A stretch of DNA of 64,000 nucleotides from Terriglobia bacterium. Lineage in GTDB: Bacteria; Acidobacteriota; Terriglobia; Bryobacterales; Bryobacteraceae. Numbering within the stretch: the stretch's first letter is position 1; each line of letters opens with the position of its first letter. The DNA is taken from NCBI GenBank assembly GCA_020073265.1, contig JAIQFN010000002.1, forward strand, positions 124,001-188,000, given 5' to 3'. Made by a program: the position numbers and the translations under genes. Below, piece by piece: positions 56,505 through 63,150 of this stretch. The notes beneath the pieces are model-generated. The model was given only the letters and a program-made list of their open reading frames with translations. It was not told the origin of the DNA and searched no databases.

Positions 56505-57407
56505 ATGTCCCAACTGGGCCACCTGCGGCTGCTCGAGGCCGAGAGCATCCACATCCTGCGCGAAGTGGCCGCCGAGTTCCAACGCCCCGTCATGCTGTAC
56601 TCGATCGGCAAGGACTCGTCGTGCTTGCTCCGTCTCGCGCAGAAGGCTTTTCACCCCGCGCCCATCCCGTTCCCGCTGTTGCACATCGACACCACCTACA
56701 AGTTCCGCGAGATGATCGAATTCCGCGACTGGTACACGCAAAAAGTCGGCGCCAAACTGATCGTCTACACCAACCAGGAAGCCATCGACGACGGCGCGAA
56801 TCCCTTCCGCCTCGGAACCCAGCGCTGCTGCGGGCTGCTCAAGACCAAAGCCTTACTCGATGGCCTGCGCGCCGGCGGATTCGACGCGGCCATCGGCGGA
56901 GCACGGCGCGACGAAGAAAAATCCCGCGCTAAGGAGCGCATCTTTTCGTTCCGCGACGACAAGGGGCAGTGGGATCCGAAGAACCAGCGCCCCGAGCTGT
57001 GGAATGTCTACAACACCCGCATCCATCCCGGCGAGAGCCTGCGCGTGTTCCCGCTGTCGAACTGGACTGAAATGGACGTCTGGCAGTACATCCACGTCGA
57101 GCAGATCCCCATCGTGCCCATGTATTTCGCCAAAGAGCGCGAGATGCTGGTGCGCGGCGATACGCTCATCCCGCTCGAGCAGCCCTTCATCCCGATGCTG
57201 CCCGGCGAAAAGCCACAGCGCGTTATGTGCCGGATGCGGTCGCTGGGATGCAGTCCGTGTACGGGCGCCATTCGCTCGGATGCCGACAGCGTGCCCAAGA
57301 TCATCGAGGAGCTGATTTCGTTCCGGCGCTCGGAGCGCGAGAACCGCGTCATCGATCACGATCAGGAAGGCTCCATGGAGATCAAGAAGCGCGAGGGCTA
57401 TTTCTGA
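56505..57407 (+). CDS. cysD: Sulfate adenylyltransferase subunit 2
   Basis: A 300-residue PP-loop ATP pyrophosphatase-type subunit that adenylates sulfate to APS. It has [20 protein letters not shown] (PP-loop), [18 protein letters not shown], and [13 protein letters not shown], and the C-terminal [27 protein letters not shown]. It works with CysN, the GTPase that follows with a one-base overlap (TGATG). The ATG at 56505 has no Shine-Dalgarno; a TAAACT box ends 7 bases before it. First gene of a sulfate assimilation operon. Confidence 0.95.
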
Positions 57408-59074
57408 TGGCCGCCCTGGCGGAACGCTCCTTCGCGATCGAAGATTTCCTGGCCCAGGAGCAGGCCAAGGACCTGCTGCGTTTCAGCACCGCCGGCAGCG
57501 TCGACGACGGCAAGTCCACCCTCATCGGCCGCCTGCTCTACGATTCGCAGAACGTCTACGAGGATCAACTCAAGGCCGTAACCAAGGCTTCCGTGAATCG
57601 TTCGGCCGGCCCCATCGATTTCTCGCTGCTCACCGACGGCCTGCGCGCCGAACGCGAGCAGGGCATCACCATCGATGTCGCCTACCGCTACTTCGCCACC
57701 GCGCGGCGCAAGTTCATCATCGCCGACACGCCCGGCCACGAACAGTACACGCGCAACATGGCGACTGGCGCTTCCACCGCCGAGCTCGCCATCATTTTGA
57801 TCGACGCCCGCAACGGGGTTCTGCCGCAGTCGCGCCGGCACGCTTACATCGCCTCGCTGCTCGGGATTCCGAACTTCGCCATCGCGGTGAACAAGATGGA
57901 CCTGGTCGCCTACGACGAGCAGGCCTTTCGCTCCATCGAAGCCGAGTTTCGCGAGTTCCTCGGCAAGCTGAACGCCCCGCATGTCTACTTCCTGCCGATC
58001 AGCGCCCTGGTGGGCGACAACGTAGTCCGCCGCAGCCCCGAGATGCCGTGGTTCGACGGCCCCAGTCTGCTGGAGTTCCTCGAATCGGTGCCGGTCTACC
58101 ATCGCACGCGATCCAGCGCCTTCCGCTTTCCCGTGCAGCGCGTGATCCGGCCGGATCTCAACTTCCGCGGCTACGCCGGTCAGATCGCTTCCGGAAGCAT
58201 CCGTCCGGGCGACGCGATCCTGGCGTTTCCTTCCGGCTTGCGCTCGCGCGTGAAAAGCATCGAAACATTCGATGGACCCTTGGACGAGGCCTTCGCGCCC
58301 ATGTCGGTCACGCTGGTGCTCGAAGACGAGCTGGATATCAGCCGTGGCGATCTGATCGCTTCCGCCAACAAGGTCGCCGAAGTGGCGCGCCAATTCGATG
58401 CCAACGTGGTGTGGATGAACGATCGCCCGCTCGATCCTTCCACCACTTATCTCCTGAAGCACACTTCGCAAACCATACCGGCCGAAGTGAAGGCGGTGCG
58501 GCATCGCGTGGATATCGGTACTCTGGGCCCCCTGCCGGCCGAGCGCCTGGAGCTGAACGAAATCGGAGTGTTGCGCATCGAAACCAGCCGGCCGATTTAC
58601 TTCGACCCCTACACTCAGAACCGCGCCACCGGCAGCTTCGTTTTGATCGACCCGCAAAGCAACGCCACCGTCGCCGCCGGAATGATTCTCGCCGCGGTGG
58701 CGCGCGAGCACGGCCGCCTGCAACGCGAGACCGTCGCATTGAAAGCGCATCGTGTGACGCCGGCTGAGCGCATCGCCCGATACCGTCATGCCGGCGCCAT
58801 CATCCCGCTCGGGCCGAGAACGGAACTGGCTTGGTCGCTGGAACGCAGGCTCTTCGATCGGGGATGCGCGGTCACGGTGGTAGACCGCGCCGCCGACGAA
58901 ACCATCGAAGCTCTCGAAAAGGCGGGTCTGCTGGTGCTGCTGGTTTCGGACGGTGCACCCGATTGGGAATTGCCGGACGACGATGCCGCCGCCGCCAAAC
59001 TCATGATCGGCAGGCTGGAGGAGTCCGGAGTTCTGCTCCCCGAAGAATCGCTGACTGGCGGCGAAGGAATCTGA
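57407..59074 (+). CDS. cysN: Sulfate adenylyltransferase subunit 1 with vestigial C-terminal APS-kinase domain
   Basis: A 555-residue protein. Residues 1-430 are the CysN GTPase that drives APS formation: LLRFSTAGSVDDGKSTLIGRLL (P-loop), IIADTPGHEQYTRNMATGAS, and NKMD. The C-terminal 125 residues keep the outline of an APS kinase (RVTPAERIARYRHAGAIIPLGP, SLERRLFDRGCAVTVVD, ALEKAGLLVLLV), but the kinase P-loop and DGDN motifs are gone, so it is probably inactive. Normal CysN is about 475 residues and CysNC about 630. CysH downstream is the APS-reductase type, which makes kinase loss harmless. ATG 57407 overlaps the cysD stop. Confidence 0.9.
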   Translation: MAALAERSFAIEDFLAQEQAKDLLRFSTAGSVDDGKSTLIGRLLYDSQNVYEDQLKAVTKASVNRSAGPIDFSLLTDGLRAEREQGITIDVAYRYFATARRKFIIADTPGHEQYTRNMATGASTAELAIILIDARNGVLPQSRRHAYIASLLGIPNFAIAVNKMDLVAYDEQAFRSIEAEFREFLGKLNAPHVYFLPISALVGDNVVRRSPEMPWFDGPSLLEFLESVPVYHRTRSSAFRFPVQRVIRPDLNFRGYAGQIASGSIRPGDAILAFPSGLRSRVKSIETFDGPLDEAFAPMSVTLVLEDELDISRGDLIASANKVAEVARQFDANVVWMNDRPLDPSTTYLLKHTSQTIPAEVKAVRHRVDIGTLGPLPAERLELNEIGVLRIETSRPIYFDPYTQNRATGSFVLIDPQSNATVAAGMILAAVAREHGRLQRETVALKAHRVTPAERIARYRHAGAIIPLGPRTELAWSLERRLFDRGCAVTVVDRAADETIEALEKAGLLVLLVSDGAPDWELPDDDAAAAKLMIGRLEESGVLLPEESLTGGEGI

Positions 59075-59075
59075 C

Positions 59076-59747
59076 ATGACTCTGGATCAAAAAATCGACG
59101 AAGCGTCCAGCGTGATTCGCGACGTGCTCGCCCGGCACTCCGAGCCTGCCTGCGTCACCTGCAGCTTTCAAACCGAGTGCATGGCCATCGTCGACCTGCT
59201 GATCGCCCAGCACCCTGACATCCCGGTGCTCTTCCTCGATACGGGCTATCACTTCGCCGAAACATACGCGTATCGCGATCAGATGGCGCGCGAGCTGCAT
59301 CTCAACCTCGTGAACCTTTTGCCGAAGCAAACCGTTCCCCAGCAGGAATCGCAGTTCGGCATTTTGTATCAAAGCGCGCCCGACCGCTGCTGCGGCATGC
59401 GCAAAGTCGAACCGCTGTTTTCAGGTCTCGATCCCTACGGCGTCTGGTTCACCGCGCTCCGCCGCGAGCAGTCTCCCACGCGCGCGAATCTGCAGCCGGT
59501 CGATCAGTTCAAGCTCCCCACCGGCAAGCAATTGCTGAAAGTGAGCCCGCTGGCCGCCTGGACCAACGCGGACGTGTGGGCTTATCTGAAGCGGCGCGGC
59601 ATTCCGGTGCTGCCGCTTTATGACCAGGGCTATACCAGCATCGGCTGCGAGCCGTGCACCACCCCGCCTCTCGATCCCGAAAATGCCCGCTCCGGCCGCT
59701 GGGCTGGGCGCAAGCTCGAGTGCGGCATCCATATCTCAAGCGAGTAG
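59076..59747 (+). CDS. cysH: APS reductase (CysH, iron-sulfur type)
   Basis: A 223-residue enzyme reducing APS (or PAPS) to sulfite. It starts DEASSVIRDVLARHSEPACVTCSFQTE, has LDTGYHFAETYAYRD, RCCGMRKVEPL (Cys pair, about residue 105) and SIGCEPCTTPP (CxxC, about residue 190). The CC plus CxxC set is that of [4Fe-4S] APS reductases, rather than the PAPS reductases that lack these Cys. The C-terminus KLECGIHI carries the catalytic Cys. It starts one base after the cysN stop region and precedes the permease gene. Confidence 0.93.
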   Translation: MTLDQKIDEASSVIRDVLARHSEPACVTCSFQTECMAIVDLLIAQHPDIPVLFLDTGYHFAETYAYRDQMARELHLNLVNLLPKQTVPQQESQFGILYQSAPDRCCGMRKVEPLFSGLDPYGVWFTALRREQSPTRANLQPVDQFKLPTGKQLLKVSPLAAWTNADVWAYLKRRGIPVLPLYDQGYTSIGCEPCTTPPLDPENARSGRWAGRKLECGIHISSE

Positions 59748-59750
59748 CGC

Positions 59751-60503
59751 ATGGAGATCGTCCTCGGATTCTTGATCGCGGTTGCCATCGGAATCACCGG
59801 TGTCGGCGCCGGCATCATCACCGCTCCGGTCCTGATCCTCTTCATGCACGTAACTCCGGCGCACGCGGTCGGAACCGCGCTGGCGTTCGGGCTCGCCGTC
59901 AAACTGCTGGTTGTCCCGATGCAGTTGTTTCGCCGCCAGGTGGATTTCCGCGTGCTCGGATACATGCTGGCCGGAGGCTTGCCGGGCGTGCTGCTCGGTT
60001 CGGCGATCCTGGCGAAACTCAACATCCCTTCGAGGCAGGGCATCCTGTACGCCGCGCTCGGCTCCACCATTGTGATCATGGCCGCGGTGAATCTTTATCG
60101 GCTTTGGCTTCGTCCCTCGGAGCCCGGAAGGCGCGACCGGTCGCGCTGGCTGCCGCTCATCACTTTTCCGATCGGCGCCGAAGTCGGGTTTTCCTCGGCC
60201 GGCGCCGGCGCCATGGGATCGCTGGCGCTCCTGGCCATCACTCCGCTCACCGCCGCGCAAGTGGTCGGAACGGATCTTTTCTTCGGCCTGTGCGTCGCGC
60301 TGGTGGGCAGCGGATTCCAACTCAGCGCGGGCAACTACGAGATGGCGATTCTCACCAAGCTGATCATCGGAGGCCTGTTCGGAGCCTTCGCCGGAACCTA
60401 CGTCGCGTCCAAAACTCCGCAGCGAGTCTTCCGCGTCGCGCTGGCGCTCTGGCTGATCACGCTCGGCATCCAGTTGTGCTGGAGCGGCGTCCGGCACTGG
60501 TAA
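59751..60503 (+). CDS. TSUP-family (TauE/SafE-like) permease
   Basis: A 250-residue membrane protein with about eight helices. The first helix LGFLIAVAIGITGVGAGIITAPVLILFM, the repeat-like second half LITFPIGAEVGFSSAGAGAMGSLALLAI, and the C-terminal MAILTKLIIGGLFGAFAGTYVASK are typical of TSUP transporters, many of which move sulfite, sulfonates or related anions. ATG 59751 follows the cysH stop by 3 bases, so it is the last gene of the cys operon and probably exports sulfite or imports a sulfur source; direction is not decidable. Confidence 0.88.
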   Translation: MEIVLGFLIAVAIGITGVGAGIITAPVLILFMHVTPAHAVGTALAFGLAVKLLVVPMQLFRRQVDFRVLGYMLAGGLPGVLLGSAILAKLNIPSRQGILYAALGSTIVIMAAVNLYRLWLRPSEPGRRDRSRWLPLITFPIGAEVGFSSAGAGAMGSLALLAITPLTAAQVVGTDLFFGLCVALVGSGFQLSAGNYEMAILTKLIIGGLFGAFAGTYVASKTPQRVFRVALALWLITLGIQLCWSGVRHW

Positions 60504-61539: not shown

Positions 61540-61653
61540 ACGCAAGAGGTCAAGATTTGTATCTGAAGGCCGCCTCCCTAACGTTCATCGCGTTTTCTTG
61601 GTACACGGCACAAGATTGGCGCACACTTGCCGATAAGGGCAACTGAGCTAAGA

Positions 61654-63150
61654 ATGCAACCAAGACGGCAAATTACGATCGGCCAACAGTTCACTTTCGG
61701 ATTCCTGGGCGTCATGGTCCTGCTGGTCACGCTGGGGTATTCGGCCCGCAACGGGATGACGAAGATCGGAGGCGAGCTCAACAGCGCGGTGAACGTAACG
61801 GCCAAGAAGATAGGCCTGGTGGGCGTACTAACGGCGGACTTTCAAGATATGCAGGTGTACGCTCGCCGGACGCAGTTTGCGTTTGTGGTGAATCATCTGG
61901 TCCAGACCAATGAGAAATTCGGGGCCAACGTGACTTGTTCGATGTGTCACACGCTGGAGGACCGCCAGTCGCGGGAACGCGAGCTGGGTGCGATGGCAGT
62001 GAACGTAAAGAGGACGGTGGCACAACTGCGGCCGCTGGTAACCACTGAAAGCGAAAAGAAATGTTTGGCCACAGTAGAGGCCGGCATCGACCAGTATGCG
62101 CCGCTCTTCAGCGAATATTTGAAGCTTGCCGAAAGTAACCAGTTTGACGACGCCCATGGTGTACTGCGCGATCAGATGGCGCCCATCGTGGACGGGATTG
62201 ACAAGGTGATGGCCCAGTTGCGGGGGGAGGCGCAGAGGTCGCTCACACAGTCGGATGATCGCGCTCGCGCTACCATAGCGCGCACCCAACGGGCCACCTT
62301 TATCGTTCTGGGGATGAGTTTAGTTGTGGGGTTTGTCGTGCTGCTGATCGTGAGCCGGACGGTGCGGCGCCTGCGGAACGTGGCCGCCCAATTGAGACAA
62401 GCCGCCCAGGAGGTAGCCAGCGCCGCCGCTCAAGTTTCCGAGGCGGGTCAGACCGTGGCTCAGAGCGTCTCCGAACATGCCGCTGCGCTGGAGGAGACCT
62501 CGGCGTCAACCGAGGAAATCAAGGGTGGCGCGCGGACCAACACACAGGCGGCCGGCGAAACGGTGGGCCTTTCCTCCGATCTCAACAAACGAATGATCGA
62601 AGCCAATGCAGCCTTGGAACAAATGATGTCCGCCATGCAGGACATGGGCGCAAGCAGCCAGAAAATCTCGAGCGTTATCCGCCTCATCGACGAGATTGCT
62701 TTCCAGACCAACCTGCTGGCATTGAACGCCGCCGTCGAGGCTGCCCGCGCCGGCGAGGCCGGAATGGGGTTTGCCGTGGTGGCCGAAGAAGTGAGACAAC
62801 TGGCACGCCGGAGCGCGCAGGCGGCCCGCGACACCACCCCGCTGATTGAGGAATCGGTCGCCAAATCCGCCCATAGTATGGATACGGCCGGCGGAGTAGT
62901 CCAGGCTGTACACTCTATCACCGGTAGCGCCGCGCGGGTCGGTGCGCTGGCCGAGGCAGTTCGAGTCAGCAGCCTCGATCAATCGCAGCACCTGGACCAG
63001 ATGGCGCAAGCCATCTCCCAGGCTCAGTCAACCATACAGTCGACCGCGGCCGCAGCCGAACAAACCGCCGCCGCCGGCGAGCAATTGCAGTCGCAGTCCG
63101 AGCAGTTGCAAGGGATCGCGGACCGGCTCATTTCGGTTTCGGGCACCTGA
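61654..63150 (+). CDS. Methyl-accepting chemotaxis protein with periplasmic haem-c motif
   Basis: A 498-residue chemoreceptor. The first membrane helix ([17 protein letters not shown]) is followed by a periplasmic sensor domain of about 180 residues containing [15 protein letters not shown] (CxxCH at residues 95-99). A second helix (residues about 214-235) leads to a cytoplasmic HAMP-like and signalling region with the hairpin tip [43 protein letters not shown]. The CxxCH is in the exported part, the place where haem can be attached. ATG 61654 has no clear ribosome site; a TTG at 61627 is possible. Chemotaxis toward oxygen or redox signals is a natural inference. Confidence 0.85.

Follow-up and report, generated by a model that had tools for sequence, protein, structure and literature searches.

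The question raised by this locus is what a protein domain does after it has lost the motifs of the enzyme from which it derives. The window, which is the whole stretch of 64,000 nucleotides analysed here (contig JAIQFN010000002.1 of a Terriglobia bacterium, source genome a 6.41 Mb draft), was found to contain a cysN gene at 57407..59074, the coordinates given for it in an earlier note on this DNA, with the stop codon at 59072-59074; all window features named here lie on the + strand. The encoded CysN of 555 aa was found to contain an intact GTPase/EF1A-like core at residues 24-427 followed by a dead adenosine 5'-phosphosulfate (APS) kinase domain. The core matched TIGR02034 over residues 24-427 with 587.7 bits (cut-off 336.1) and the PDB entry 1zun_B with an E value of 2.3e-147, the GTPase motifs GSVDDGKST, DTPGH and NKMD were present, and cysD was found upstream; these residues are those of an ordinary CysN. 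The C-terminus is, by alignment and predicted structure, a folded pseudoenzyme domain stripped of its catalytic and nucleotide-binding loops. It is read here, with a probability of about 0.5, as a non-catalytic protein-protein module that would hold the CysDN assembly together or dock a partner.

The loss of the kinase motifs was read from an alignment with the intact CysNC L220. The P-loop GLSGAGKST of L220 was found to face four gaps followed by GPRTE in the window CysN (residues 469-473, 58811..58825), where the Lys is lost and four positions are deleted; the earlier note, which had GLSGxGKST replaced by GPRTELAWS, was right in substance. The LDGDN of L220 was found opposite VDRAA (residues 492-496, 58880..58894), where the catalytic-base Asp is lost, and the loss of DGDN claimed in that note was thereby borne out. 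The ENIRR, RDPKGLY and FTGI segments faced gap columns alone, and this deletion of the ENIRR segment and the lid is the larger loss and was absent from the note. No intact kinase motif came to light on the realignment, and the observation as a whole was confirmed: the protein ends in an APS-kinase-derived domain without P-loop, base Asp, ENIRR segment and lid.

In the CysC of M. tuberculosis, PMC4373884 describes ATP bound by the P-loop, a Mg-bound water contacted by Asp478, Asp480 as the proposed base and Lys562 in the lid. The features of a catalytic APS kinase (PF01583), namely the P-loop GxxxxGK[ST], the base Asp of LDGD and the KGLY...FTG lid, were all missing from the window CysN. Pfam APS_kinase gave no match to the whole protein or to its C-terminal 117 aa (E up to 1), and the bifunctional CysNC model NF004035 was matched with 677.8 bits, below its cut-off of 715 bits, and was covered to position 495 of 632. 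Because the P-loop, LDGDN, ENIRR, KGLY and FTG elements are altered or deleted, the tail is almost certainly without APS kinase activity. An assembly error or a frameshift was rejected as the cause of this state, which is shared by the congeners and the family: the same tail domain was found in 4/4 of the congeneric genomes searched and recurs through the family, and the state is thus more than chance. The ORFs (open reading frames) of the relatives were picked as open frames, which makes them unsuited for testing premature stops.

The APS-kinase-derived pseudo-domain was found to occupy residues 449-550 (58751..59056) as a minimal beta-alpha Rossmann core. In the full-length model it hangs on a linker at residues 434-448 (58706..58750) with a pLDDT (predicted local distance difference test score) below 50. 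With hhalign, the profile built from 29 such tails (A3) matched that of 15 intact APS kinases (A4) at a probability of 97.3% and an E value of 2.6e-11 over 72 columns. The AlphaFold2 model of the window tail with 45 relatives contained three strands and five helices, with a pLDDT of 93.4 and a predicted template modelling score (pTM) of 0.84. Foldseek ranks 1-14 in the PDB were all APS kinases, with a best E value of 1.8e-3 and none at or below 0.001. By VIA-align, Z was 11.1 against 4fxp (root-mean-square deviation 2.2, 98 aligned), 10.1 against the kinase-like domain of yeast ATP sulfurylase (1jec, residues 379-511), 9.1 against M. tuberculosis CysC and 8.6 against Penicillium ATP sulfurylase (1i2d), followed by other proteins at 7.7 and below. 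Profile similarity and fold similarity together place the tail in the APS kinase fold, in the sense of homology only, and the claim that it keeps the scaffold of APS kinase was upheld by the agreement of profile homology (97.3%) and predicted fold (pLDDT 93, Z 11.1).

Among five genomes of the genus, the ratio of nonsynonymous to synonymous substitution rates (dN/dS) of the tail was 0.07-0.27 (mean 0.20) and that of the core 0.02-0.14. The bootstrap upper limits of the tail values were all below 0.5 (10/10 genus pairs), and the close pair G001-G002, with a synonymous rate (dS) of 0.23, gave a tail value of 0.07 (0.01-0.21). Purifying selection acts on the tail at present. Conserved across the family were the first helix (ER..R..H), the LER.LF helix and the AGL strand. 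The 49 CysN of the family and class comprised 40 with a tail of at least 60 residues without P-loop, six without tail and three in which the kinase is live. Counted among the 40 are G053, whose tail is unrelated, G010, in which a stretch is masked, and G043, which is cut by a contig end. The fragments of G022 were excluded. In L102, the locus of G053, an unrelated-looking tail of about 75 residues was found to replace the kinase remnant, and cysH and tauE still adjoin.

The C-terminus of the window CysN was found to contain the nucleotides of a GEGI motif at 59060..59071 (residues 552-555), which is frequent in the family. Among 45 family CysN read, 43 were complete and ended in GEGI in 24, in a related xxGI in 8 and otherwise in 11; the last group contained three live kinases, one masked stretch and three proteins without such a domain (G026, G028, G053), among others. 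G034 (L090) stands outside this count of 43 and its tail is likewise without P-loop. G050 was found to have lost nearly the whole domain, yet its C-terminus reads FEEGEGI. The dead domain was present and GEGI absent in f11, another family of the class, which the tree places near the Acidobacteriaceae locus L154. GEGI is a family trait, probably one of the protein level.

The adjacent cysH (59076..59747, 223 aa) was found to contain Cys-Cys at residues 105-106 (59388..59393) and CxxC at residues 191-194 (59646..59657), both read from the sequence and both as the earlier note had them. The segments RCCGMRK, GCEPCT and ECGIH supply the CC, CxxC and ECGIH of an iron-sulfur assimilatory APS reductase. 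The protein scored 189 bits with TIGR02055 APS_reductase, below the cut-off of 235.3, and its best model was NF002537 'phosphoadenylyl-sulfate reductase' with 231.2 bits (cut-off 154); TIGR00434 cysH was passed (178.3 vs 165.1) and TIGR02057 PAPS_reductase failed (147.6 vs 254.2). The pattern-found CysH ORFs near CysN in relatives contained CC in all cases (19 of the family and 6 of the class) and GCxxCT in 24/25. In a second, more distant CysH type, CC was found in 20/20 fetched loci and an intact CysC in the same stretch in 15/20.

The earlier note had concluded from this CysH that PAPS (3'-phosphoadenosine 5'-phosphosulfate) is not needed, and the claim stood in part. Eight dead-domain family genomes (G003, G011, G015, G016, G032, G045, G055, G058; 91-99% complete) gave no APS-kinase match, that is, none was detected among at most 33 candidates scored per genome, and carry a CysH with the same CC and CxxC; since they combine the dead domain with no APS-kinase match, their sulfate assimilation should not need PAPS. 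G093 and G100, which belong to a different family of the class, likewise keep the dead domain and gave no APS-kinase match. These ten genomes support the APS route. What did not stand is the absence of any need in the window genome itself, where an intact CysC (GLPCAGKTT, FDGDQ, KGLY; PF01583 191 bits) overlaps the end of a sulfotransferase gene (PF13469 67.6 bits); because of this overlap, PAPS is probably still made there, for sulfation, by the separate CysC. The same genome contains an APS-kinase-like protein at L002:1477-2013 (C80; PF01583 125 bits) with ESD for DGD, probably acting on another substrate.

The kinase had further been said to be lost by relaxation after the adoption of an APS reductase. 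Relaxation does not fit the present state of the domain, because the domain is under purifying selection (mean dN/dS 0.20, upper limits below 0.5). As to the cause, across phyla CysH was of the CC type in 8/9 of the readable genomes whose fused kinase is live and in 17/20 of those whose fused kinase is degenerate. The live set consisted of 10 genomes, of which 9 were readable, 8 with CC and CxxC and one, L256 Competibacteraceae, without either, and one gave a CysD-level match only. The degenerate set consisted of 28 genomes searched, with 20 readable CysH, 6 CysD-level matches only, a fragment ending before the motif (L286) and one without ORF (L287); the 17 with CC include L283, a fragment short of CxxC. 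The degenerate cases in which CysH was found to lack CC and CxxC were L282 (a metagenome-assembled genome of Myxococcales), L284 (Nitrincola) and L285 (Acinetobacter sp. NIPH 2100), and in all three the fused kinase is P-loop-less. An APS reductase as the demonstrated cause of the kinase loss was rejected, the cause being unproven because APS-type CysH occurs at these frequencies on both sides and fails to part degenerate from live; on these motif readings, CysH type is not by itself a sufficient explanation of the loss.

The dead tail most likely has a scaffold or docking role, because the domain is folded, tethered, conserved and without a nucleotide pocket. CysDN would make APS with GTP hydrolysis and CysH would reduce the APS directly, the dead domain on its flexible linker would hold the CysDN assembly together or dock a partner with the conserved GEGI peptide as the probable contact, and PAPS for sulfation would come from the separate CysC beside the sulfotransferase in the window genome. 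Several points weigh against such a role. The tail dN/dS averaged about twice the core value, which means a weaker constraint on the tail, and the single tail values are rough because dS was at least 1.3 in 9/10 genus pairs. The domain was lost in the family members G028, G050 and G053 and is therefore not indispensable. The last four residues (GEGI) had a pLDDT of about 43 in the full-length model, a candidate start followed the GEGI gene within 15 bases in 12/24 cases, and the second Gly codon of GEGI was GGG in 12/24, with a background of 372/1635. These last two counts, together with a GAAGGA seven bases ahead of the cysH ATG in the window, would favour conservation of the tail at the RNA level, with GGNGARGGNATH as the cysH ribosome-binding site and the open tail keeping translational coupling. 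This is very improbable: the start finder, which accepted any ATG, GTG or TTG followed by 80 open codons, gave no candidate start that near in the remaining 12/24 GEGI genes (e.g. G017, G025, G027a, G057, G060), and constraint at the amino-acid level runs along the whole tail. A ribosome-binding site alone was rejected as the only explanation of GEGI, to which it may still contribute.

The protein-protein module has also to be weighed against three readings of the domain itself. The view of the domain as a neutral remnant, in slow decay since the kinase died after the takeover by an APS reductase, would agree with the APS-type CysH, the faster evolution of the tail than of the core, the range of tail lengths after the core (54 to 160 aa among the non-live family tails) and the three losses named above; it is nevertheless unlikely in view of dN/dS near 0.2 with upper limits below 0.5, the retention of the P-loop-less tail in 40/49 family and class CysN (a count that includes G053, G010 and G043), the high-confidence predicted fold, the conserved GEGI, and an APS-type CysH no commoner with degenerate than with live fused kinases. 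An allosteric sensor, in which sulfonucleotide binding by the dead domain would exert feedback on sulfate activation in the manner of Penicillium ATP sulfurylase, has a published parallel in the fungal enzyme (PMC3779200 and PMC13213808) and a fold match to 1i2d (Z 8.6). Such sensing is rather improbable here, and a PAPS sensor is disfavoured by the lack of a nucleotide pocket: the tail has lost P-loop, DGD, ENIRR segment and lid, and the domain is kept in the eight family genomes without detected APS kinase, hence probably without PAPS. The earlier suggestion of a structural or regulatory domain remains the best guess, with the structural side favoured and the regulatory side weakened by the loss of the pocket. 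APS kinases dimerise, and the pseudo-domain could pair with a live stand-alone CysC and bring PAPS synthesis to CysDN; the intact CysC found in 15/20 fetched loci with the second CysH type and the CysC beside the sulfotransferase of the window genome would suit such a dock, which is quite improbable and, as a mere dock, disfavoured by the ten genomes (eight of the family, with G093 and G100) that keep the dead domain without an APS-kinase match.

The kinase loss was not found to be local, contrary to the evolutionary story as first told; it extends to further families of the class and to other phyla. A tail-profile search of 396 genomes of the phylum gave a match in 37. Those of f11 were of the P-loop-less kind; elsewhere the matches were longer CysNC in which the motif had changed to DGEN, EGEN, HGTN or DGNN, and at least one match (L145) contained DGDT. 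The survey across phyla covered the 80 nearest relatives of the window CysN among the matches listed from the genome collection, and is a biased sample because only these were kept. In this set the P-loop was found to be absent in Methylococcaceae, Crenothrix, Myxococcales, Nitrincola and Acinetobacter, Bacteroidales contained GSGKN with DGST or DGFT, and Planctomycetes contained DGEN, DGEV, DGQS or YGQN, with LDGD retained in Pirellula. Alignment A6 contained 48 of the 80 loci and A7 contained 45; tail-less, near-duplicate, short or cut loci (L179, L211) and L209 were left out of both, and L166, L214 and L221 also of A7. Among 46 aligned tails, the P-loop Lys was found in 31, the Mg Asp in 35, the base Asp in 15 and all three in 13. 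A tally of 154 CysN by regular expressions gave P-loop lost in 74, motif lost in 44, no tail in 24 and intact in 12, where L145, L172 and L201 retain LDGD and are counted as motif lost because KGLY differs. In the tree of the 154 CysN cores, which was midpoint-rooted and has many low inner supports, the acidobacterial proteins and two Myxococcales formed a group of 66 (support 0.97) with three live fused kinases only. The loss was recurrent, because P-loop-less forms sit in several separate groups of this tree; by motif and tree it is old, being found in the family, in further families of its class and in CysN outside the phylum. The Acinetobacter loci L203, L204, L208 and L221 were found to encode CysN of about 537 aa whose kinase remnant is much reduced and P-loop-less; in the tree this is a separate loss from the acidobacterial one.

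The exceptions with an intact fused kinase were G005, G019b and G040. In a tree of 86 kinase domains, where each of these appears twice from two loci, they were found to group with four stand-alone CysC of the same family (10 leaves, support 0.99), and this group was nested in a larger stand-alone CysC group, away from other CysNC; the tree labels were set by patterns, and some long CysNC (e.g. L034, L035, L036, L109, L110, L115) are labelled CysC. The simplest reading seems to be that in G005, G019b and G040 the dead domain was replaced by a new fusion of a live CysC. The CysH search of G005 and G040 gave CysD-level matches only, and the live-fusion gene of G005 was found divergent from a sulfotransferase ORF (PF13469 32.3 bits, cut-off 27). 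G019 was found to hold both kinds, the dead form adjoining cysH and the live form without cysH.

Among known systems, CysNC/NodQ share the architecture and domain order with the window CysN, whose core is ordinary, whereas their kinase has about 190 residues and the window tail about 110, without P-loop, base Asp, ENIRR and lid. Stand-alone CysC shares fold and sequence homology with the tail, which is predicted to be non-catalytic. The ATP sulfurylases of fungi and yeast (1i2d, 1jec) likewise carry a fused dead APS-kinase domain at the C-terminus, and the yeast domain (1jec 379-511) is similarly reduced (Z 10.1). However, the fungal and yeast domains sit on a Sat-type ATP sulfurylase, whereas the window domain sits on the GTPase subunit of the unrelated CysDN-type enzyme. 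In filamentous fungi the domain binds PAPS, as described in PMC3779200, whereas in the window tail the pocket is gone by sequence. PMC3779200 and PMC13213808 describe the fungal domain as a PAPS-binding regulator and the yeast domain as without defined function, and link such kinase-like domains to hexamer formation. The function of the window domain is most likely closer to that of the yeast than of the Penicillium domain. In the literature searched, with subscription papers mostly outside its reach, no description of a CysN-borne dead APS kinase came to light, whereas fungi are already known to have dead fused APS kinases. In PMC1780047, NodQ is told from CysN by a Pfam APS-kinase match, a criterion that would count proteins like the window CysN as plain CysN. 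In each of the genomes G007, G031, G056 and G060, a Sat-type ATP sulfurylase was found alongside a CysDN that carries the dead domain.

The CysNC of Pseudomonas (L168, L174, L175, L178 and other loci) was found to keep the P-loop and to contain DGQN for DGDN, with QGLY in the lid in L168 and L174. The replacement of the base Asp on a CysN fusion, with a CC/CxxC CysH in the genome (e.g. L168, L174), is as in the window, from which these proteins differ in that the P-loop is still there. Although the family is named bifunctional, Pseudomonas CysNC may not be an APS kinase. A wider view is tentative: CysN-fused APS kinases would have died repeatedly in several phyla, their remains becoming a conserved non-catalytic CysDN module as an independent counterpart of the fungal domain; one acidobacterial family would have gained the GEGI contact peptide, live CysC would have been re-fused in the few lineages needing PAPS for sulfation, and many annotated CysNC, Pseudomonas included, would not be kinases. 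If this is true, an enzyme that textbooks call bifunctional has a single function in many bacteria, where annotations of PAPS synthesis inferred from CysNC are wrong. It would also be a second, independent case of a fused APS kinase gone non-catalytic, on an unrelated ATP sulfurylase, whose roles could be compared, and the relatives with a re-fused live kinase, where CysH was looked for and not found, would serve as a natural experiment on the division of APS between reduction and sulfation.

The cluster was found to contain cysD, cysN, cysH and a TauE/SafE gene in this order, where neighbouring genes overlap by one base or lie a few bases apart. The cysD gene (56505..57407; TIGR02039 449 bits, NF009214 464 bits) encodes the catalytic subunit of the CysDN ATP sulfurylase, and its stop overlaps the start of cysN by one base. 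The TauE/SafE family transporter gene (59751..60503; PF01925) is often the fourth in the cysD-cysN-cysH-tauE cluster, and this order was seen again in four congeneric genomes and several other genera. Further downstream, window 61627-63150 was found to encode a methyl-accepting chemotaxis protein (4HB_MCP_1, MCPsignal) with CSMCH (CxxCH) in its N-terminal part, as if haem c were bound.

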